Shown: positions 39,543 to 48,746 of the stretch, piece after piece
Layout of the letters: every line of letters begins with the position of its first letter
Position numbering within the stretch: the first letter of the stretch is position 1
Assembly: GCA_903928915.1 (NCBI GenBank)
Contig: CAIYSL010000061.1
Span: forward strand, 1-64,000
DNA length: 64,000 nucleotides
Source: an uncultured Syntrophobacterales bacterium
Lineage (GTDB): Bacteria; Desulfobacterota; Syntrophia; Syntrophales; UBA5619
Reading direction: 5' to 3'
The notes under the pieces: generated by a model
Databases searched by the model: none
Told to the model about the DNA's origin: nothing
The model's input: the letters and a program-made list of their open reading frames with translations, nothing else
Made by a program: the position numbers and the translations under genes

Positions 39543-39872
39543 TCAATTTCTCCGCAGCTTCCCGCGCCGGTCGAGGATCTCCGCGAAAAGCGGAAGCAGC
39601 AGCGAGCCGAGCGGCAGGAGCAGGAGTATCAGGGCGGGCACATACAGCAGCAGATGCCGGACATGGGATTTGAGTCGGGTTCGGTCCTCCGGCGTCCATG
39701 CCTCCCCCGTATTGCGCTGCTTCATCAACAGGCGCATGAACTCCGACATATGCTCGCTTTCCCGGAGTATCGCTGCCCGGTTCTTCCGGATCATCCTCGT
39801 GAGGAACGGGCGAAGCATCGCCCCGGAAGGATGTGCGCCGGCGACTCCGGGAATGTCACCCCGACGTCCCAT
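39543..39872 (-). CDS. small membrane protein, unknown function, coupled to tyrA
   Basis: A 109-aa protein: a basic amphipathic N-terminal region (RMIRKNRAAILRESEHMSEFMRL in outline) and one long C-terminal hydrophobic segment (about 74-98) ending in basic residues. The LLLPLGSLLLPLFAE stretch is reminiscent of LETM1-type membrane segments, but this is only a resemblance. The ATG overlaps the tyrA stop (ATGA), with GGAG upstream, so it is the last gene of the aromatic operon. No role in aromatic biosynthesis is evident. Confidence 0.6.
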   Translation of the reverse strand: MGRRGDIPGVAGAHPSGAMLRPFLTRMIRKNRAAILRESEHMSEFMRLLMKQRNTGEAWTPEDRTRLKSHVRHLLLYVPALILLLLPLGSLLLPLFAEILDRRGKLRRN

Positions 39873-40633
39873 CAGGACTCCTTCAGCAGGCCGGCGAGGC
39901 CGTCGGCGTCACGCTGTCCGATCAACTTTTTCAGGCGCGCGAGGTTCTTTTCGTACCGGGCGATGATCTCCGGAAGTGCAGGGTTGCCCGCGAGGATGGC
40001 CGCGTACATCTCGGGGCGAAGGCCGAAGACCTTGGCGACGATGGCCTGTTTGGTTCGAAAGACAGGGGTGGAAAAGCGCTCCAGCGCCGCCGGCTCCACG
40101 CCGGAATCGCGGAGCGCGAGCCCCATCAGGATCGTGTCGAGGTGGGTCAGCCCCTGGACGAGGGCCATCATCCGGTCGTGTTCGGCGGGCGTCGTTACCG
40201 TCACGCGGGCGCCCCCCGCGGTAAAGAGCCGTTCCATCCGGCCGAGCCAGCGCTCGCCTCGCCCCGGACACAGGACGATGTTCTGTCCCGCGAGGGAGGG
40301 GCAATCCGGCCCGAACAGGGGGTGGCAGCCGACCACCTCCGCCCGCGTCGCGGCGACCATCGCCCGGACCGGTTCTTCCTTGAGGGAGGTGAGGTCCATC
40401 AGGAGCGCCTCTTTGGCAAGGTGCGGCCCCACCGCGTCGATGACTTCGCGGGTCGCCGCGATCGGGACGGCGACGATGATAACCGGGCAGCGGCCGGCGA
40501 GCTCCGGGATCGACATCCCGCTCGTCCGTCCGCTCCGCTGGACCGCATAGCCTGCCCCGGCGAAGTAATCGGCGAACCACCCGCCGATCCCGCCCGTCCC
40601 GCCGATGATCCCGATTTCAAAATCTTTCATCAT
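39872..40633 (-). CDS. tyrA: prephenate (or arogenate) dehydrogenase
   Basis: A 253-aa monofunctional TyrA for the tyrosine branch. The N-terminal NAD(P) loop is IGGTGGIGGWFA, and the conserved His is in VVGCHPLFGPD. The C-terminal helical dimer domain is complete, but there is no chorismate mutase or ACT domain, so feedback control must come from elsewhere. Prephenate versus arogenate use cannot be read from sequence. A MITE-like element separates it from aroC by 172 bp. Confidence 0.9.
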   Translation of the reverse strand: MMKDFEIGIIGGTGGIGGWFADYFAGAGYAVQRSGRTSGMSIPELAGRCPVIIVAVPIAATREVIDAVGPHLAKEALLMDLTSLKEEPVRAMVAATRAEVVGCHPLFGPDCPSLAGQNIVLCPGRGERWLGRMERLFTAGGARVTVTTPAEHDRMMALVQGLTHLDTILMGLALRDSGVEPAALERFSTPVFRTKQAIVAKVFGLRPEMYAAILAGNPALPEIIARYEKNLARLKKLIGQRDADGLAGLLKES

Positions 40634-40805: not shown

Positions 40806-41861
40806 TCAATCCGTGATCGCCCGCTGCCGGAGCAGATGATCCGCCAGCACAATCGCCACCATGGCTTCGCAGACCGGGACGATCCGCGGGATGACCGAGG
40901 CGTCGTGCCGGCCGCCGATCGTCACGACCGCGGGCCGGCCCTGTGCGTCCACGGTCTCCTGGGGGCGGGCGATTGACGGGATGGGCTTGCAGGCGACCCG
41001 CAGGACGATCTCGGCGCCGGTGGTGATCCCGGCGAGGACCCCCCCGGCGTTGTTGCTCGTGAATCCGCCGGGGCAGATCGGGTCGTTGCAGGCGGAGCCC
41101 TGCATCCGCGCGGCCGCGAACCCCGCGCCGATCTCCACCCCCTTGACGGTTCCGATCCCCATCAGCGCCCCTGCCAGGTCCGCGTCGATCTTGCCGAAGA
41201 CCGGCTCGCCCAGGCCCGGCGGGCAGCCCTGAACCCGGATCTCCACGATCCCGCCGAGGGTGTCGCCCGCGGCCCGCGCCTCCGTGAGGCGCGCGAGCAT
41301 CTCCTGCTCCGCCCCGGGGTCGGGACAACGCAGCGGACTTGCCGCTGCCGCCTCGGGGGAACCGGGCTGTGCGACCACGCCGCCCAGCTCCCGCGTCCAG
41401 GCCTTGACGACGATCCCGGCCCGGCCGATCACCCGGCGGGCCACGGCGCCGGCGGCCACCCGGGCCGCCGTCTCCCGGCCCGAGGCGCGGCCGCCGCCCC
41501 GGTGGTCCCGGATCCCGTACTTGGCCTGGTAGGTGATGTCGCCGTGGCCCGGCCGGTACAGGTCGCGCAGGCCATCGTAGGCGTCGGCGGTGGCATCGGC
41601 GTTGCGGATCAGAAGGCTGATCGGCGTTCCGGTCGTCTTCCCCGCGAACAGGCCGGAGAGGATCTCGACTCTGTCCGCCTCCCGGCGGGGGCTTGCCGAC
41701 GGGATCAGGCCCGGCCGCCGCCGGTCGAGCTCGGCTTGGATATCGGCCGCGGCAATGGCGAGCAGGGGCGGGCAGCCGTCGATCACGGCCCCGGTGGCCG
41801 GGCCGTGCGACTCTCCCCAGGTGGTGACCCGAAACAGGACGCCGATTGAGTTTCCGGACAT
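40806..41861 (-). CDS. aroC: chorismate synthase
   Basis: A 351-aa FMN-dependent enzyme converting EPSP to chorismate. Signatures are VTTWGESHGPATG near the N-terminus, GDITYQAKYGIRDHRGGGRASGRET in outline, and the C-terminal VTIGGRHDASVIPR. Family length is normal. AGGAG precedes the ATG, 12 nt after the aroK stop. The stop lies at the edge of the MITE-like element, so the insertion just spared the gene. Confidence 0.97.
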   Translation of the reverse strand: MSGNSIGVLFRVTTWGESHGPATGAVIDGCPPLLAIAAADIQAELDRRRPGLIPSASPRREADRVEILSGLFAGKTTGTPISLLIRNADATADAYDGLRDLYRPGHGDITYQAKYGIRDHRGGGRASGRETAARVAAGAVARRVIGRAGIVVKAWTRELGGVVAQPGSPEAAAASPLRCPDPGAEQEMLARLTEARAAGDTLGGIVEIRVQGCPPGLGEPVFGKIDADLAGALMGIGTVKGVEIGAGFAAARMQGSACNDPICPGGFTSNNAGGVLAGITTGAEIVLRVACKPIPSIARPQETVDAQGRPAVVTIGGRHDASVIPRIVPVCEAMVAIVLADHLLRQRAITD

Positions 41862-41873
41862 GGTTCGCTCCTC

Positions 41874-42437
41874 TTAGCGGTTTTCTCCGGGATCGGCACT
41901 GATCCCCGCCGTCTCCGGGAACCGCTCCCGCAGGGCAGTGCGGATCGCCCCCACCACCGCCGCGACGGGGATGCCGGTCGTGTCGACGACGATATCGGCG
42001 AGCTGCCGGTACAGCGGCTCCCGCTCGGCCAGTACCGCCCGCATCTCCTGTACGCTCGGCTCGCCCGTGAGCGACGGCCGTTCGGTCCCGCGCTCTTTGT
42101 CCCGGACCATCCGGCCGGCGATCGCCTCGGGACTGGCGGAAAGCCAGATGAAGAACCCCTTGGCCTTGAGGTCCGCCACGTTTTCGGGGGCGCAGACCGT
42201 GCCGCCTCCCAGGGAGATGACCCCGCCGTCGGTGCCGGCAAGCTCCCGGACCACCTCCCGCTCGGCCGCGCGGAAGGCGGGCCAGCCATTTTCGGCCACG
42301 ATCCGGGAGATCGGGCGGCCGGTCCGCTGTTCGATCATCTCGTCCGTGTCGAAGAAGGGGGCCCCGAGCTCCTCGGCCAGGCAGCGGCCGGCGGTGCTCT
42401 TGCCGGTGCAGCGGAACCCCATCAGGATCACGTTCAT
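41874..42437 (-). CDS. aroK: shikimate kinase
   Basis: A 187-aa P-loop kinase phosphorylating shikimate. Walker A is GFRCTGKSTAG; FFDTDEMIEQRTG carries the metal/substrate Asp, and SLGGGTV is the shikimate-binding GGG motif. The lid region has RPSLTG. The start at 42437 overlaps the aroA stop (ATGA) with GGAGGGG upstream; the frame before it is a shadow. Confidence 0.95.
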   Translation of the reverse strand: MNVILMGFRCTGKSTAGRCLAEELGAPFFDTDEMIEQRTGRPISRIVAENGWPAFRAAEREVVRELAGTDGGVISLGGGTVCAPENVADLKAKGFFIWLSASPEAIAGRMVRDKERGTERPSLTGEPSVQEMRAVLAEREPLYRQLADIVVDTTGIPVAAVVGAIRTALRERFPETAGISADPGENR

Positions 42438-43696
42438 GAAAGCCCCTCCAGGGCCTGCCAGAACCCGGGGAAGGATTTCCCGACGCACCCCTCTCCCTCG
42501 ATCTTCATCCCCGGGACCGCCAGCCCCAGGACCGCGAAGCTCATGGCAATCCGGTGGTCGTCGTAGGTGGCGATCGTCGCGCCGCGGGGGGCTCCCCCGG
42601 TGACGGCGATCCCGTCGGGGAGCTCCTCGGCGGCAATCCCGGTCTTTCGCAGTTCCTTCACCATCGCGGCCAGCCGGTCGCTCTCCTTGATCCGGAGGTG
42701 GGCCACGTTGCGGATCAGGGTCCGGCCCGGACGGAGCGCCGCGAGCACGGCCAGGGTCGGCACCATGTCGGGCATTGCGGCCAGGTCGAAGGTCATCTCC
42801 CCGGGCGGGAGTTGACCGCCGACGACCTCCACTGCGCCCTCCCCCCGGGCGACCCGGCAGCCGAGCCGCTCCAGGAGCGTGAGGAACCCCGCGTCCCCCT
42901 GGCCGGAACGCGGGTTGACGTTCTCCACCCTGATGCGGCCCTTGGTGAGCGCCGCGGCGAGAAAGAAGTACGAGGCGCTGGAGAGGTCCCCTTCGACCCG
43001 GTACTGCCGGCCGCGGTAGCGCTGGCCGCTCTTTACCACGTAGCGGCCGGCCCCGTCCAGGGCCACGTCGACGCCGAAGGCCCCCATCGTCTCCACGGTG
43101 AGCGCCACGTAGGGGAGCGACGGGACCCGCCCCTCCAGGGCGATGGTCACCTCGCCCGCCGCGTACGGAGCGGCGATCAAGAGCGCCGAGACGTACTGGC
43201 TGCTCTCGATGTCCCGCAGCCGCAGCTTTGCCCCCCGCAGGCCTCCGCCGCGGACCGTCACCGGCGGAAAGCCGCGGTCCCCCTCGGTTTCGCAGCGGGC
43301 CCCGAGTGCCGCCAGGGCGTCGATGAGGGGCTTCAGCGGCCGCTGCCGCAGCCGCGGGGTCCCGGTCAGGACGGCCGGGCCGTCGCCGAGCGCGGCCACC
43401 GCGGTGAGGATCCGCATCGCCGTTCCGTTGTTCCCCAGCCGGATCTCCCCCGCCGGGCGGGCCAGCTTCCCGCCGGTTCCGCGGATGGCCATCTCCGTGC
43501 CCGTCGTCCCGATGCCGGCCCCAAGCGCCGCGAGCGCCCGGCCCAGCAGTTTTGTGTCCTCGGCCACGAGGACCTCCGTCAGGCGCGACTCCCCCTCGGC
43601 GAGGGCCGCGATCACCATCGCCCGCTGGGTGTAGCTCTTCGATCCGGGGATCCGGACCGTCGCGTCGAGCGCTTCGCGCGGCGTTATCTCAATCAT
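42434..43696 (-). CDS. aroA: 3-phosphoshikimate 1-carboxyvinyltransferase (EPSP synthase)
   Basis: A 420-aa enzyme joining shikimate 3-phosphate and PEP. The N-terminus IPGSKSYTQRAMVIAALA contains the substrate-binding Lys, LGNNGTAMRILTAV is the PEP-loop motif (NGT), and the C-terminal IKESDRLAAMVKEL and DDHRIAMSFAVLGL are canonical. The stretch is complete and 9 bp separate it from aroE. Length and motif variants would be needed to place it in glyphosate-sensitive or -insensitive classes. Confidence 0.96.
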   Translation of the reverse strand: MIEITPREALDATVRIPGSKSYTQRAMVIAALAEGESRLTEVLVAEDTKLLGRALAALGAGIGTTGTEMAIRGTGGKLARPAGEIRLGNNGTAMRILTAVAALGDGPAVLTGTPRLRQRPLKPLIDALAALGARCETEGDRGFPPVTVRGGGLRGAKLRLRDIESSQYVSALLIAAPYAAGEVTIALEGRVPSLPYVALTVETMGAFGVDVALDGAGRYVVKSGQRYRGRQYRVEGDLSSASYFFLAAALTKGRIRVENVNPRSGQGDAGFLTLLERLGCRVARGEGAVEVVGGQLPPGEMTFDLAAMPDMVPTLAVLAALRPGRTLIRNVAHLRIKESDRLAAMVKELRKTGIAAEELPDGIAVTGGAPRGATIATYDDHRIAMSFAVLGLAVPGMKIEGEGCVGKSFPGFWQALEGLS

Positions 43697-43705
43697 GCTG
43701 TTTCC

Positions 43706-44521
43706 CTACCCATCGCTATCCGTTAATCGTTCCAGGACCACCCGCCGCATCTCCTCGACCGGCGGCTCCTGCCCGGTCCAGAGGCGGATCTGCTCGGCCC
43801 CCTGGTGGACGAGCATCCCGATCCCGGAGCGGACGGCGCACCCGGCCGCCCGGGCCTCCCTGAGGAGCCGCGTCAACGGCGGGTTGTAGATCATGTCCAT
43901 CACCCGGGGAAACCGGGCGAGGAGCCGCGCCTCCACGGGGGTTTGCCCCGTCTCGGGGTGCATCCCCCGGGGGGTCGTGTTGATCAGGCAGTCCGCCCGC
44001 AGGCCGGCGAGCGCCGCAGCGGGCTCCCATCGGCACCCAAGACTGCGGGCCAGCTCCTGCGCCCTGGCCGGTGTCCGGTTGACGCAGATCGGCGTCCCGC
44101 CTGCTTCCCGGAGCGCGTACAGGGCCGCCCGGGCCGCCCCGCCGGCGCCGAGGACGACGAACACCCTGGCCGGGACCGCCATCCACTCCCCCAGGTCGCG
44201 CAGGAACCCCGGGGCGTCGGTGTTGCATCCGCTGAGCCTGCCGTTGCGGTTGACGATCGTGTTTACCGCCCCGATCGCGGCGGCCGCCGGGTCGATCTCG
44301 TCGAGGAGCTCCATCACCGACTCCTTGAACGGGATGGTGACGCTCGCCCCGGCGATGCCTTCGTCCCGGATCAGTCGGACGACCTCGGCGGCCCGATCCA
44401 CCCGGAAGGCCCGGTAGTCGGCGGCGATCCCCATGCGGGCGTAGGCCGCGGCGTGCATGGCAGGCGAGAGGCTCTGGCTCACGGGGTTCCCGAACAGGGC
44501 ATACCGGACGGTTTCAGTCAC
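43706..44521 (-). CDS. aroE: shikimate dehydrogenase
   Basis: A 271-aa NADP-dependent enzyme reducing 3-dehydroshikimate. Catalytic Lys66 (TIPFKESV) and Asp102 (CNTDAPGF) are present; GAGGAARAALYAL is the nucleotide loop and NRTPARAQEL fits NADP binding. The start is GTG at 44521 with GGGAGGT 7 nt upstream; it overlaps the end of aroD by 8 nt. Frame sequence further upstream is a shadow of aroD. Confidence 0.95.
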   Translation of the reverse strand: MTETVRYALFGNPVSQSLSPAMHAAAYARMGIAADYRAFRVDRAAEVVRLIRDEGIAGASVTIPFKESVMELLDEIDPAAAAIGAVNTIVNRNGRLSGCNTDAPGFLRDLGEWMAVPARVFVVLGAGGAARAALYALREAGGTPICVNRTPARAQELARSLGCRWEPAAALAGLRADCLINTTPRGMHPETGQTPVEARLLARFPRVMDMIYNPPLTRLLREARAAGCAVRSGIGMLVHQGAEQIRLWTGQEPPVEEMRRVVLERLTDSDG

Positions 44522-45200
44522 GACCCGCACCTCCCAGGATTCGGCCGACCTCCCGCAGCTCGGCGATCGTGAGCTGGCCCGGGGCCGAGGCCTCGTCGCG
44601 GTCGAGCGAGGCATAGTCGATCGCGGAGCCGAAAAGCGGCGCGGCGATCCGGCTGACTTTCCCGGCCGCCCCCATGCAGAAGGCGGCGATCGCCTGCCCC
44701 TGCTCGCGGGCCAGGGGGATGAGCTCCAGGACCCGCAGGCAGTCGGCGGCGGCATCGGCGGTGGTGACGATCTTGACGATCGCCGGTGCATCCGCCCTGC
44801 ACGCGTCGAGCTTCCGCCGGAGCGATTCGGCGGGGGGCGTCCCGGAGAAGTCGTGCCACGAGGAGATCAAGCGCGTGCGGCCGCCTGCCAGCACGGCGCG
44901 CAGCTCCGCCTTCAGGCCCGGGTCGGTCGCCTGCTCGCAGTCCACGTAGTCGGCCCCGAGGCGCGCTGCGGCCGCGAGCGAGGCGATCCGCTTTGCCTCG
45001 GCGCCGGCGAACCCGCCCCCCTCGGCGGCGCTGCGGTTGGTGACGATCACGGCGCAGCGCCGCGGCGCGAGCAGGCGCTCCAGGTCGGCGCCGGGGATCC
45101 GGTCGATCCTGAGCTCCACGACGTCGGCCAGCGGGGCGGCCCGTTCCATGAGCGCCAGGGCCGCGTCGGTCGTGGCCGCGCTGACGGGGATGCAGATCAC
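44514..45200 (-). CDS. aroD: 3-dehydroquinate dehydratase, type I
   Basis: A 228-aa class I (Schiff-base) enzyme. His116 (SSWHDFSGTP) and Lys143 (IVKIVTTA) are the catalytic residues; VELRIDRI and YASLDRDEASAPGQLTI are also typical. The start is GTG at 45200, overlapping the pheA stop, with GGAGGAG upstream. Type I was chosen over the smaller type II AroQ because of the Lys/His pair and length. Confidence 0.94.
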   Translation of the reverse strand: MICIPVSAATTDAALALMERAAPLADVVELRIDRIPGADLERLLAPRRCAVIVTNRSAAEGGGFAGAEAKRIASLAAAARLGADYVDCEQATDPGLKAELRAVLAGGRTRLISSWHDFSGTPPAESLRRKLDACRADAPAIVKIVTTADAAADCLRVLELIPLAREQGQAIAAFCMGAAGKVSRIAAPLFGSAIDYASLDRDEASAPGQLTIAELREVGRILGGAGRD

Positions 45201-46300
45201 GGCAGCTCCTCCCCCCGGGGGTAGGACCCCAGGACCTTGAGGAAGGCGGTTCTGTTTTTCAGTTCGGTGAGACACTCCTCCGCCTTCTCCTCTGTGGCGT
45301 GGCCGGCGAAGTCGGCGAAGAAGAGGTACTCCCACATCCGGTCCCGCATCGGGAAGGACTCGATCCGGAGCAGGTTGAGCCCCGCCTCCGCAAAGGGGGC
45401 CAGGGCCCGCTGCAGGGCGCCGGGGACGTGGGGGGTCCCGAAGAGGATCGAGGTCTTGTCGCGGCCGGTGACCCCGCCGCCTTTTTCCCCGGGCCGCGGT
45501 CCGATCACCAGGAAGCGGGTGGTGTTGCCGGGGTTGTCCTCGATCCCCTCGGCCAGGACGTTCAGGCCGTACGTCTCGGCGGCCAGGATGCTCGCCACGG
45601 CTGCCGCCCGTTTGTCCTCCCTGACCCGGCGGGCCGCCCCGGCCGTGCTCTCCACTTCGACGAGCGGGACGCCGGGGATGTGGGTGCGGAGCCACACCTG
45701 GCACTGGGCAAGGGCCTGGGGGTGGGAGTAGATCTTCCGGATCGCGTCCCGGTCGTCGCCGCCGGACAGCAGACAGTGCCGCACCCGCAGGTACACCTCC
45801 GCCCGGATCGAAAGCGGCGTCGAGATGAGCCGGTCGAGGGTCGCCTTGACCGACCCCTCGGCGGAGTTTTCCACCGGCACGATCCCCCACTGCTCCCGGC
45901 CCCGCTCCACCTCGTCGAACACCTCGGGGATCGTGGCCGTGGGGATCGCGGCGATCCCGCCGCCGAAGTGGGCGAGGGCCGCCTGGTGGCTGAAGGAGGC
46001 CTCCGGTCCGAGGAAGGCCACGGTGGTGGGCTTCTGGAGGAAACGCGACGCCGAGAGGATCTCCCGGAAGATCCCCCGGAGCGCCGCCTCGGAGAGGATC
46101 CCCTCGTTGAACTCCTCCAGGTGGCGGTAGACCACGGCCTCCCGCGAGGGGTCGTACACCTCGCGGCCGGCGGCGCGCTTGGTCTTGCCGATCGCGAGCG
46201 AAACGGCCGCCCGTTCGTTCAGGAGCCGGACGATCTCCCGGTCGGCCTGCTCGATCTTTTCCCTGAGCTGCTCCATCGTCTCTGCGGTGTTCTCGTTCAT
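45197..46300 (-). CDS. pheA: bifunctional chorismate mutase / prephenate dehydratase
   Basis: A 367-aa P-protein. Residues about 8-90 are an AroQ-type chorismate mutase (LREKIEQADREIVRLLNERA), about 93-275 the prephenate dehydratase (VAFLGPEASFSHQAA, and the TRF motif in NTTRFLVIG), and about 285-360 an ACT domain. The Phe-binding ESRP motif reads ESFP here, so feedback strength may differ. It is the branch enzyme to phenylalanine, located unusually in the middle of the shikimate genes and coupled to aroB and aroD by 4-nt overlaps. Confidence 0.95.
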   Translation of the reverse strand: MNENTAETMEQLREKIEQADREIVRLLNERAAVSLAIGKTKRAAGREVYDPSREAVVYRHLEEFNEGILSEAALRGIFREILSASRFLQKPTTVAFLGPEASFSHQAALAHFGGGIAAIPTATIPEVFDEVERGREQWGIVPVENSAEGSVKATLDRLISTPLSIRAEVYLRVRHCLLSGGDDRDAIRKIYSHPQALAQCQVWLRTHIPGVPLVEVESTAGAARRVREDKRAAAVASILAAETYGLNVLAEGIEDNPGNTTRFLVIGPRPGEKGGGVTGRDKTSILFGTPHVPGALQRALAPFAEAGLNLLRIESFPMRDRMWEYLFFADFAGHATEEKAEECLTELKNRTAFLKVLGSYPRGEELP

Positions 46301-47394
46301 CCCTTTTTCAATCCTTCCAGCGTCTTGGTCAACAGCTCCTCGGGGATGCTCCCGTTGACGATCGGGACCCCCAGTTTCTTCAGCAGGACGAACCGGACGG
46401 TCTGTCCCTGCCGCTTCTTGTCCCGGCCGATCCGGGTGCGGATCTCGGTCAGGTCGAGGTTTGCCGGGATCCGGTCGGGCAGGCCCAGCGCCCGGATGGT
46501 CGCGACGATCCGCCGGCCGTCGTCGGCGGGCAGATGGTGGAGCTGCTCGGAGAGCCGCGCCGCGGCCACCATGCCGATCGCCACCGCCTCGCCGTGGGAC
46601 AGGGCGTAGGCCGAGGCCGCCTCGACGGCGTGGCCGATCGTGTGGCCGAAGTTCAGGACCTTGCGCAGCCCGTTGTCCCGCTCGTCGAGCTCGACGAACC
46701 CCTTCTTGATCCGGCAGGCCGTCGCCACGATCCGCTCGAGGAATGCCGGTTCCCGGAGCGATCCCTCCGTTGCGGCGGCGTCGAGGCTGTCCAGGAGGTC
46801 CGGGGCGTCTATGGCCCCGTATTTTACCACCTCGGCGAGGCCGCTTGCGAGCTGGCGGTCGGGGAGCGTCCCGAGGAAGGAGGTGTCGATGAACACCCCC
46901 TTGGGCTGGTAAAAGGTCCCGAGGATGTTCTTGCCCCAGGCGGTGTCCACCCCGGTCTTCCCGCCGATGCTGCTGTCCACCTGGGCCAGGAGGGTGGTGG
47001 GGACCTGGATCACCGGGATCCCCCGCATGTAGATCGAGGCGGCAAACCCCGTCAGGTCGCCGATGACGCCGCCGCCCAGGGCGATCAGGGCGGTCTGCCG
47101 GTCCGCCCCGAGGCCGGTCAGCCGTTCGGTAACGCCGAGGACCGTCCCGATCTCCTTGGCGGCCTCGCCGGGGGGGACCGTGATCCGCTCGACCTTGAGG
47201 TCGGTCTGCCGCAGGGCCTGCTGCACCCGCTCGCCGTGGAGGGCGTCGATCGCGGTGTCGGTGACGATGACGTACCGCTCGGCCCAGTTGTTCCGCGCCA
47301 GGATCATGGCCATGCGGTCCAGGATCGCCTCGCCGATGTGGATCTCGTAGGAGTTCCCGGCCTTCCGGGTGAGGTTGACGGTGATCTTGTTCAT
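46297..47394 (-). CDS. aroB: 3-dehydroquinate synthase
   Basis: A 365-aa NAD- and metal-dependent cyclase. GGGVIGDLTGFAASIYMRGI, VPTTLLAQVDSSIGGKTGVD, the metal ligands in AEVVKYGAI and NFGHTIGHAVE, and LSHGEAVAIGM are all canonical. The ATG at 47394 overlaps the aroF stop; the frame upstream of it is a shadow of aroF. Confidence 0.97.
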   Translation of the reverse strand: MNKITVNLTRKAGNSYEIHIGEAILDRMAMILARNNWAERYVIVTDTAIDALHGERVQQALRQTDLKVERITVPPGEAAKEIGTVLGVTERLTGLGADRQTALIALGGGVIGDLTGFAASIYMRGIPVIQVPTTLLAQVDSSIGGKTGVDTAWGKNILGTFYQPKGVFIDTSFLGTLPDRQLASGLAEVVKYGAIDAPDLLDSLDAAATEGSLREPAFLERIVATACRIKKGFVELDERDNGLRKVLNFGHTIGHAVEAASAYALSHGEAVAIGMVAAARLSEQLHHLPADDGRRIVATIRALGLPDRIPANLDLTEIRTRIGRDKKRQGQTVRFVLLKKLGVPIVNGSIPEELLTKTLEGLKKG

Positions 47395-48419
47395 CAGAGC
47401 CTCCCGATGCCGTTGCGCATCGTCTCCGCCAGGAGGGTCACCTCGTCCATCATCCGGTAGAACTGCTCGGGTCTCAGCGACTGGGGGCCGTCCACCAGGG
47501 CCTTTTCCGGTTCCGGATGGACCTCGACGATGACGCCGTCGGCCCCGACGGCCACGGCCGCCCGGGCCAGGGGGATGACGTACCGGGCGTGGCCCGAGGC
47601 GTGGCTCGGGTCGAGGATCACCGGCAGGTGGGTCAGCTCCTTCAGGACCGGCACGGCGCTGATGTCGAGGGTGTTGCGGGTCGTCGTCTCGAAGGTGCGG
47701 ATCCCGCGCTCGCAGAGGATGACCTGCTCGTTGCCCTCGGAGAGGATGTACTCCGCCGACATCAAGAGCTCCTCGATCGTGGTCATCATCCCCCGTTTGA
47801 GCAGAACCGGTTTGCGGCAGTGGCCGACCTTCTTCAGGAGCGCGAAATTCTGGACGTTCCGCGCGCCGATCTGGAGGATGTCGCTGTACTGCTCCACCAC
47901 ATCGACTTCCGTCGTGTTCATCACCTCGGTCACCACCGGCATCCCCACCTTCTCGCCGACCTTCTTCAAGAGCTTCAGCCCCTCCTCTTCGAGCCCCTGG
48001 AAGCTGTAGGGCGAGGTCCGGGGCTTGAAGGCGCCGCCGCGGAGGATCTTCGCCCCCGCCTTCTTGACGACGTAGCCGGACTCCATCAACTGCTCCTCGC
48101 TCTCGATCGAGCAGGGGCCGGCCATGACGACGAAATCCCCCCCGCCGATCTTCACGTCGCCGACCTGGATGATGGTGGCCTGGTCGTGGAACTCCCGGCC
48201 GGCGAGCTTGTAGGGCTTGAGGATCGGGACCACCTTCTCTACCCCGGGGAGGAAGGCCGCCGCCTTCAGGTGGGTCTTTCCCCGGTCGTCCCCGATGGCG
48301 CCGATCAGGGTCCGCTCCACCCCCTGGGAGACGTGGGGCTTGTACCCCACCGACGCGATCCATTCGGTCACCTGGTCGATCTGTTCCTGCGTCACGTTTC
48401 TCTTCATCAGAATGATCAT
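47394..48419 (-). CDS. aroF: 3-deoxy-7-phosphoheptulonate (DAHP) synthase, type I-beta with N-terminal FL domain
   Basis: A 341-aa enzyme that starts the shikimate pathway from PEP and erythrose 4-phosphate. Residues 1-70 form a ferredoxin-like (ACT-like) regulatory domain as in Thermotoga DAHP synthase. The catalytic barrel shows [34 protein letters not shown] and DPSHASGH. The N-terminal domain usually binds Tyr or Phe for feedback. AGAGGTG precedes the ATG. It is the first structural gene of the operon and lies behind two leader terminators. Confidence 0.96.
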
Positions 48420-48433
48420 GGTTCACCTCTTTC

Positions 48434-48478
48434 GAAAAAAAATGGCCGTGGTGATCTCGGCGCTGCCACCACGGCCAT
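48434..48478 (-). terminator. second aro leader terminator (proximal to aroF)
   Basis: On the minus strand ATGGCCGTGGTG and CACCACGGCCAT form a perfect 12-bp stem followed by an unbroken T-run, ending about 15 bp before the aroF start codon. Confidence 0.85.
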
Positions 48479-48486
48479 GCAGAAAC

Positions 48487-48527
48487 AAAAAAGCCATGGG
48501 CAGCGTCTTGCGGTCTGTCCATGGCTT
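48487..48527 (-). terminator. first aro leader terminator (attenuator)
   Basis: On the minus strand AAGCCATGGACAG and CTGCCCATGGCTT pair over 13 bp with one G-U pair and are followed by TTTTTTG. It begins about 25 nt after the leader peptide stop, placing it where a ribosome stalled on the leader could influence folding. Confidence 0.8.
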
Positions 48528-48552
48528 AGTGCGTTACGGTGTTTGGCTTCCC

Positions 48553-48636
48553 CTACGTCCTCCTAAGCAACGGGCAGACCGATGCATAAAAGTAATAAAA
48601 CCAAAACAGGTTGCGATAGGAGTTTGCCGTTGCCAT
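48553..48636 (-). CDS. aromatic operon leader peptide with Phe/Trp/Tyr run
   Basis: A 27-residue open frame containing SYRNLFWFYYFYASV: three Phe, three Tyr and one Trp codon lie within seven consecutive positions. It precedes two tandem terminators ahead of aroF, the same design as trpL. Stalling for lack of charged tRNA-Phe, tRNA-Tyr or tRNA-Trp would allow read-through into the entire shikimate-Phe-Tyr operon. The ribosome-binding site is weak and distant (GAAGGA about 14 nt upstream). Function is inferred from codon content and position. Confidence 0.85.
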   Translation of the reverse strand: MATANSYRNLFWFYYFYASVCPLLRRT

Positions 48637-48717
48637 CGTCGGTGCTCGTTTCCTTCTTATTGCATCTGCGTTGTATCTGTTCTTCCCGCACGGCCCGATT
48701 CTCCGCCGGGAGGGCGT

Positions 48718-48746
48718 ATGAAAACACAACCCTGCGGCCCTGTCAA
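48718..48746 (-). promoter_or_regulatory. sigma-70 promoter of the aromatic operon
   Basis: On the minus strand TTGACA (48741-48746), a 17-bp spacer and TTTCAT (48718-48723). The start site would be near 48710, about 74 nt before the leader ATG. Confidence 0.6.

Follow-up and report, generated by a model that had tools for sequence, protein, structure and literature searches.

A putative Phe/Trp/Tyr leader attenuator with two terminators upstream of a shikimate-Phe-Tyr operon in Syntrophales

The window, i.e., the whole stretch of 64,000 nucleotides that was analyzed, carries on its minus strand a nine-gene operon in which all seven steps of the shikimate pathway are combined with pheA and tyrA. 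A first-pass annotation of this DNA had reported these genes in one operon, and a leader with FWFYYFY and two intrinsic terminators ahead of aroF. NCBIfam assignments bear out the gene content, the order of which is conserved, and ORF translation and hairpin folding place the leader and both terminators on the minus strand. The features are as follows, in the order of transcription.

48741..48746, minus strand: TTGACA, candidate -35 element upstream of the leader, read from the sequence and absent from the consensus scan
48553..48636, minus strand: leader ORF of 27 codons, MATANSYRNLFWFYYFYASVCPLLRRT followed by the stop (ATG at 48636, TAG ending at 48553)
48625..48633, minus strand: arm 1, GCAACGGCA, able by sequence to pair with arm 2 (protector hairpin)
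48586..48606, minus strand: control codons F W F Y Y F Y, residues 11-17 of the leader ORF
48563..48581, minus strand: arm 2, CGGTCTGCCCGTTGCTTAG, overlapping the leader ORF at its 3′ end and forming the antiterminator together with arm 3 (folding, pair counts)
48511..48529, minus strand: arm 3, CTAAGCCATGGACAGACCG, 5′ side of terminator 1, which can also pair with arm 2
48487..48525, minus strand: terminator 1 (hairpin 48525-48493, U tract of U6 at 48492-48487)
48493..48505, minus strand: arm 4, CGCTGCCCATGGC, 3′ side of terminator 1; arm 5 is its proposed partner in the relay
48435..48476, minus strand: terminator 2 (hairpin 48476-48444, then A and U8 to 48435)
48461..48475, minus strand: arm 5, GCCGTGGTGGCAGCG, 5′ side and loop of terminator 2, able to form 13 bp with arm 4
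47394..48419, minus strand: aroF, DAHP synthase, start at 48419 (NF006421 and TIGR01361, above cut-off)
46297..47394, minus strand: aroB, 3-dehydroquinate synthase (TIGR01357)
45197..46300, minus strand: pheA, chorismate mutase / prephenate dehydratase (NF008865)
44514..45200, minus strand: aroD, type I 3-dehydroquinate dehydratase, start approximate (TIGR01093, slightly under cut-off)
43706..44536, minus strand: aroE, shikimate dehydrogenase, start approximate (TIGR00507)
42434..43696, minus strand: aroA, EPSP synthase (TIGR01356)
41874..42437, minus strand: aroK/aroL, shikimate kinase, start approximate (best matches shikimate kinases, below equivalog cut-offs)
40806..41861, minus strand: aroC, chorismate synthase (NF003793, TIGR00033)
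39872..40633, minus strand: tyrA, prephenate dehydrogenase (best matches prephenate dehydrogenases, below cut-offs)

Gene order and neighbors leave little doubt regarding the identities of aroD, aroK, and tyrA despite their scores below the cut-offs. All nine genes occur in the same order in 20 of the 26 leader-bearing loci with at least 8.5 kb of downstream sequence, and trpE is the next gene after the operon in several leader-bearing loci. The same genome has a second DAHP synthase gene (L002, C49:8080-9060), 53% identical and without an aromatic leader.

The translated leader ORF of the window contains a run of seven consecutive aromatic codons. At least six aromatic residues per eight codons were found in 6 of 1000 first-order Markov shuffles versus 66 of 70 real upstream regions; the aromatic-dense leader ORF is more than chance. 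Regarding initiation signals, no clear -10 element was seen downstream of TTGACA (48746-48741), the promoter/terminator consensus scan returned no minus-strand promoter, and the leader ORF has no good Shine-Dalgarno sequence in the window, AAGGA lying 14 nt from the ATG. For comparison, DAHP synthase relatives were drawn from whole genomes and GTDB contigs, and Syntrophales aroF loci were defined at 68% identity or more. A short ORF with a dense F/W/Y run and a VCP-like end motif precedes aroF in 75 of the 76 such loci with enough upstream sequence, L084 being the sole one without a leader; L079 was left out for too little upstream sequence. The VCP-like motif is the coding reading of arm 2. 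The order of the aromatic residues varies among leaders (FWFYYFY, YWFGFYYF, FGYWFYYYY, SYYYFFA) and the residue class stays, as expected if the codons and not the peptide were under selection. The leader, the antiterminator pairing, and the terminators are kept across Syntrophales and beyond, which answers the conservation check proposed in the first-pass annotation. Most aroF relatives at 56-61% identity, in other groups, are without a leader, and L097 has a weaker one.

The consensus scan listed no terminators on either strand because its rule admits no loop longer than 8 nt; both were found by hairpin folding. Automatic picking yielded two or more hairpins resembling terminators in 63 of 75 loci, and both terminators were definable in 70 loci by hand or by a relaxed rule. 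By sequence, the region combines the components of a trp/phe-type attenuator: a control-codon leader, a terminator, an antiterminator excluding it, and a protector 1:2. The protector 1:2-type pairing is predicted in the absence of a ribosome in 66 of 69 loci. On an alignment of 44 sequences (A1), the 10-bp 2:3 helix has 91% of its cells paired versus at most 47% when slid, and shows 15 further pair types; its covariation score is 0.228 versus 0.201 in shuffles, 2 of 500 of which reach it. One locus (L043) alters both sides of the helix, CATTCTGCCC with GGGTAGAATG. When the window leader is folded with the ribosomal A-site at W12, F13, Y14, Y15, or F16, 2:3 forms at 0.62-0.98; with the ribosome at the leader stop codon, terminator 1 forms at 1.0. 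Mutually exclusive terminator and antiterminator pairings, for which folding had been proposed as a check, are thus present in the leader RNA. The leader region is, on these sequence-based grounds, very probably a full trp/phe-type ribosome-mediated transcription attenuator.

Such a switch is poorly tested by folding complete transcripts to equilibrium, and truncated transcripts were used in their place. In complete transcripts at equilibrium, a stall reopens terminator 1 in only 32 of 70 loci, and in the other 38 the terminator persists. Timing decides in the classical trp attenuator, and it would have to decide here as well, since terminator 1 prevails in those 38 loci despite the stall. In transcripts ending before arm 4, 2:3 retains at least five pairs at 520 of 522 aromatic stall codons; thus, Phe, Trp, and Tyr codons all lie at positions where a stall would work. 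Sensing of all three aromatic amino acids, an earlier suggestion from the leader peptide, is supported by the codons of the sensing stretch, as F, W, and Y all occur within one 10-residue stretch in 64 of 70 leaders.

The second terminator adjoins the aroF ribosome-binding site on its upstream side, and its strong stem (-12 to -25 kcal/mol) is followed by a U tract. In the window, arms 4 and 5 can pair through 13 bp interrupted by a 2-nt bulge, and arms 1 to 6 with both pairing sets constitute a six-arm alternating chain. All 70 loci are predicted to be able to form the 4:5 duplex, whose energies (-12.5 to -25.8 kcal/mol) resemble those of terminator 2. The 4:5 core is mostly invariant and, owing to bulges that vary from locus to locus, shows only weak covariation by column; an energy-based swap test was used. 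Among aroF loci, own 4:5 pairs reach -19.2 kcal/mol versus -17.35 kcal/mol for swapped pairs; outside the shared CCATGG core, the values are -5.33 versus -4.20 kcal/mol, and this advantage persists after thinning to 37 and 20 dissimilar loci. The part outside the core extends into the loop of terminator 2, and the stem of that terminator does not depend on it. Compensating changes are exemplified by L043 (arm 4 GCTCCCC, arm 5 GGGGGC) and L083 (arm 4 ATACC, arm 5 GGTGT), and L090 has both cores altered (CCGCGG and CGCGGG). In phylogenetically independent pairs, i.e., loci joined by paths that do not overlap on the aroF dendrogram, own 4:5 is the stronger in 16 comparisons and swapped 4:5 in 5 (sign p 0.027, Wilcoxon p 0.013). 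The positive controls 3:4 and 5:6 behave as expected in this test, and the negative control, arm 3 with arm 6, unpaired in the model, gives p 0.72; with the 4:5 comparison restricted to the apical parts, significance is lost in the sign test (p 0.19) and the Wilcoxon p is 0.018. In transcripts cut before arm 6, the 4:5 occupancy index is 0.95 at the best aromatic stall versus 0.16 at the stop codon. At the window locus, the index is likewise high with the ribosome at the stop codon (1.04), and terminator 1 must therefore act there before arm 5 appears. Once arm 6 is complete in the window RNA, 5:6 beats 4:5 at equilibrium; together with the reopening of terminator 1 in only 32 of 70 loci, this implies that both switches must be kinetic.

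The effect sizes for 4:5 are moderate, and from the comparative data we infer a relay of this kind; the balance tilts toward its operating in the aro family. The first-pass annotation had seen the two terminators and missed the 4:5 pairing that links them. This putative coupling is the more novel element, and the comparative data support it.

Two other readings of the second hairpin bear on this inference. It could be mainly an mRNA-stabilizing or RNA-processing element at the 5′ end of the aroF mRNA, which would suit its position directly before the aroF ribosome-binding site; however, a U tract follows it in most loci, a stabilizer needs none, and we regard this reading as very improbable. 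Alternatively, the shared hairpin cores could reflect terminator duplication only, with a leader sensing just one of the three amino acids. Both hairpins do have a core in common, CC(A/G)TGG among aro loci and CCGTG among trp loci, but the apical halves of hairpins 1 and 2 differ, arm 4 covaries with arm 5 and not arm 3 with arm 6, and most leaders keep F, W, and Y, whereas related transporter leaders hold mainly Phe and trp leaders hold Trp runs. This combination is judged improbable.

The preferred reading is an attenuator that would respond to charged tRNA-Phe, -Trp, and -Tyr and control the whole shikimate-Phe-Tyr operon through two terminators in series, which we consider likely. Briefly, when Phe, Trp, and Tyr are plentiful, the ribosome would reach the leader stop codon and cover arm 2, so that 3:4 forms as terminator 1, and polymerases leaking past it would meet terminator 2 (5:6). 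When Phe, Trp, or Tyr is short, the ribosome would stall in FWFYYFY, the free arm 2 would pair with arm 3, and terminator 1 would be blocked; the freed arm 4 would then pair with arm 5 (5′ side and loop of terminator 2) ahead of the synthesis of arm 6, and terminator 2 would fail. The off state would thus comprise 1:2, 3:4, and 5:6, and the on state 2:3 and 4:5. Since 2:3 both blocks terminator 1 and frees arm 4 to block terminator 2, one stall would lift both stops. With a strong terminator past the switch, the operon would stay off unless terminator 2 were liftable too. A classical single switch at terminator 1, with terminator 2 as an independent, unswitched, leaky back-up lowering basal expression, appears rather unlikely. 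It would accord with the equilibrium preference for 5:6, with the few aroF loci that have no recognizable terminator 2 (e.g., L027 and L053), and with swap tests in which own 4:5 is not better than swapped in the trp, transporter, and ADTHS leaders, the trp result being weakened either way because the leader hairpin was picked as the first terminator in L146, L147, L150, and L153. By contrast, a fixed terminator 2 with a strong stem and U tract would cap expression, the 4:5 complementarity covaries and extends into a loop dispensable to the stem, and in the same genomes the ilv genes with Ile leaders manage without a second terminator.

Textbook attenuators serve one branch and read one amino acid with one terminator. 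The enterobacterial his leader has six arms, A to F, in which A:B, C:D, and E:F alternate with B:C and D:E, and only E:F is a terminator. The present leader resembles it in the chain of alternating pairings along six arms and differs in that the his leader has histidine codons and one final terminator, whereas here the leader is aromatic and 3:4 and 5:6 are both terminators. Attenuation of the Escherichia coli trp and pheA operons is described in two sources (PMC11802643, PMC4046766). E. coli trpL and pheL are similar in the control-codon leader, the arms 1:2, 2:3, and 3:4, and the location of arm 2 at the leader end, and each involves one amino acid and one terminator, as opposed to three amino acids, two terminators in series, and the whole common pathway here. 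In Corynebacterium glutamicum, the same sources present aroR, a Phe-Tyr-Phe leader before the aroF operon (Neshat 2014, cited in PMC11802643; PMC4046766), for which the review reports induction under Phe limitation (PMC11802643). Leader-peptide attenuation of DAHP synthase is thus common to both; aroR has FYF only, and the passages on it that were consulted describe neither a Trp codon nor a coupled second terminator. The uORFC-13-1 motif upstream of aroF in Acholeplasma (PMC8632094) likewise combines a short upstream ORF with a terminator before aroF, although its lineage and structure are different and it is restricted to Acholeplasma and environmental sequences without assignment. The rimP-leader of some Gammaproteobacteria combines an antiterminator with two terminators in tandem (PMC2965389), and it is not described there as a leader-peptide system. 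The claim of novelty in the first-pass annotation is therefore to be narrowed: leader control of aroF has precedents in Corynebacterium and Acholeplasma, and no three-amino-acid, pathway-wide, two-terminator attenuator was found described in the openly accessible literature that was searched. Its reading of the function is probably right.

A covariance model (R1) built from A1, with matches accepted at E 0.001 or better, matches 149 of 155 genomes of the class, the matched copy not always being at aroF, and 206 of 395 genomes sampled across the phylum. All 17 best phylum matches outside the class have an aromatic leader; 10 precede aroF, and 6 precede the gene for 2-amino-3,7-dideoxy-D-threo-hept-6-ulosonate synthase (ADTHS), the first enzyme of the archaeal-type route. 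L222 resembles the ADTHS-type leaders, its downstream gene being hidden by the contig end. Since the leader device is found upstream of either of two first enzymes, the RNA switch seems to have been retained or redeployed through a change in the chemistry. In Rfam, nothing in the window reached the gathering score, with sub-threshold chance matches only, and matches up to E 5 around aroF and trpE included no Trp, Phe, His, Leu, or Thr leader and no T-box; a search of plasmid sequences found nothing similar. A comparative survey held that amino-acid attenuators may stem from gammaproteobacteria with few transfers (PMC3766115), a picture into which the Syntrophales-type aromatic leader family does not easily fit.

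A broader proposal is that these loci belong to a relay-attenuator class widespread in the phylum, in which one stall at any of three aromatics would trigger 2:3 and then 4:5, and that the related leaders on DAHP-type and ADTH-type operons, trp, the Phe-leader transporter, and the Trp-leader porin form one aromatic regulon; we regard the case for it as evenly balanced. In the proposed attenuator, the trunk of aromatic biosynthesis would be under one leader that polls its three end products. The linkage of two terminators suggests a simple circuit in RNA in which repression is multiplied and one sensor is kept; such a relay, if true, would sharpen the off state without cost to the on state. The aromatic two-terminator leader offers a specific, testable design, and the RNA family is missing from Rfam and resides in syntrophic bacteria with few genetic tools.

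Related leaders were also observed before other genes; those before the periplasmic binding protein, porin, and AroH genes listed below came up as secondary matches within the class. The window itself has a trp leader (MTVQKLSVRRNWWWWNDTTEGSIHC followed by the stop, with a WWWW run) before trpE at 20634-20467 on the minus strand, with two tandem terminators (20534-20504 and 20486-20467), and a trp leader with two terminators is kept in nearly all relatives read. Phe-rich leaders with tandem terminators precede a Peripla_BP_6 (LivJ-like) gene in L175, which belongs to the same genome as the window (C40:66944-67091), and in L179, L182-L189, L192, L193, and L196, which suggests a Phe-controlled transporter. 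Trp-rich leaders with tandem terminators precede a Phenol_MetA_deg outer-membrane protein (porin) gene in L180, L181, L190, and L191. F/W/Y leaders with two terminators stand before archaeal-type (ADTHS, DHQ synthase II) shikimate operons of other classes in L212, L216, L219-L223, and L255-L257; the ADTHS operon of L255 continues with DHQ synthase II, aroD, aroE, aroA, aroK, aroC, and pheA. The 4:5 pairing is long in the aro family, in aroF loci of other classes, and in the porin and one ilv leader, and spans approximately 5-9 bp in most others. Leu/Val leaders with two terminators sharing a CCGCGG-like core precede ilvB in L177 (same genome as the window, C18:48452-48611), L228, L235, L236, and L242-L244. 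Val-rich ilv leaders have two terminators, as opposed to a single one in the Ile-rich ilv leaders and in the leuA leader L178; the single terminator of the Ile-rich ilv leaders indicates that doubling is not a general habit of these genomes. In three Syntrophales aroF loci (L063, L066, and L067), an extra stretch of approximately 130-150 nt of similar sequence lies between terminator 2 and aroF, and in L194 a leader, MFCCFWDSYCFPLRRPLLRRN, precedes an AroH-type chorismate mutase gene.
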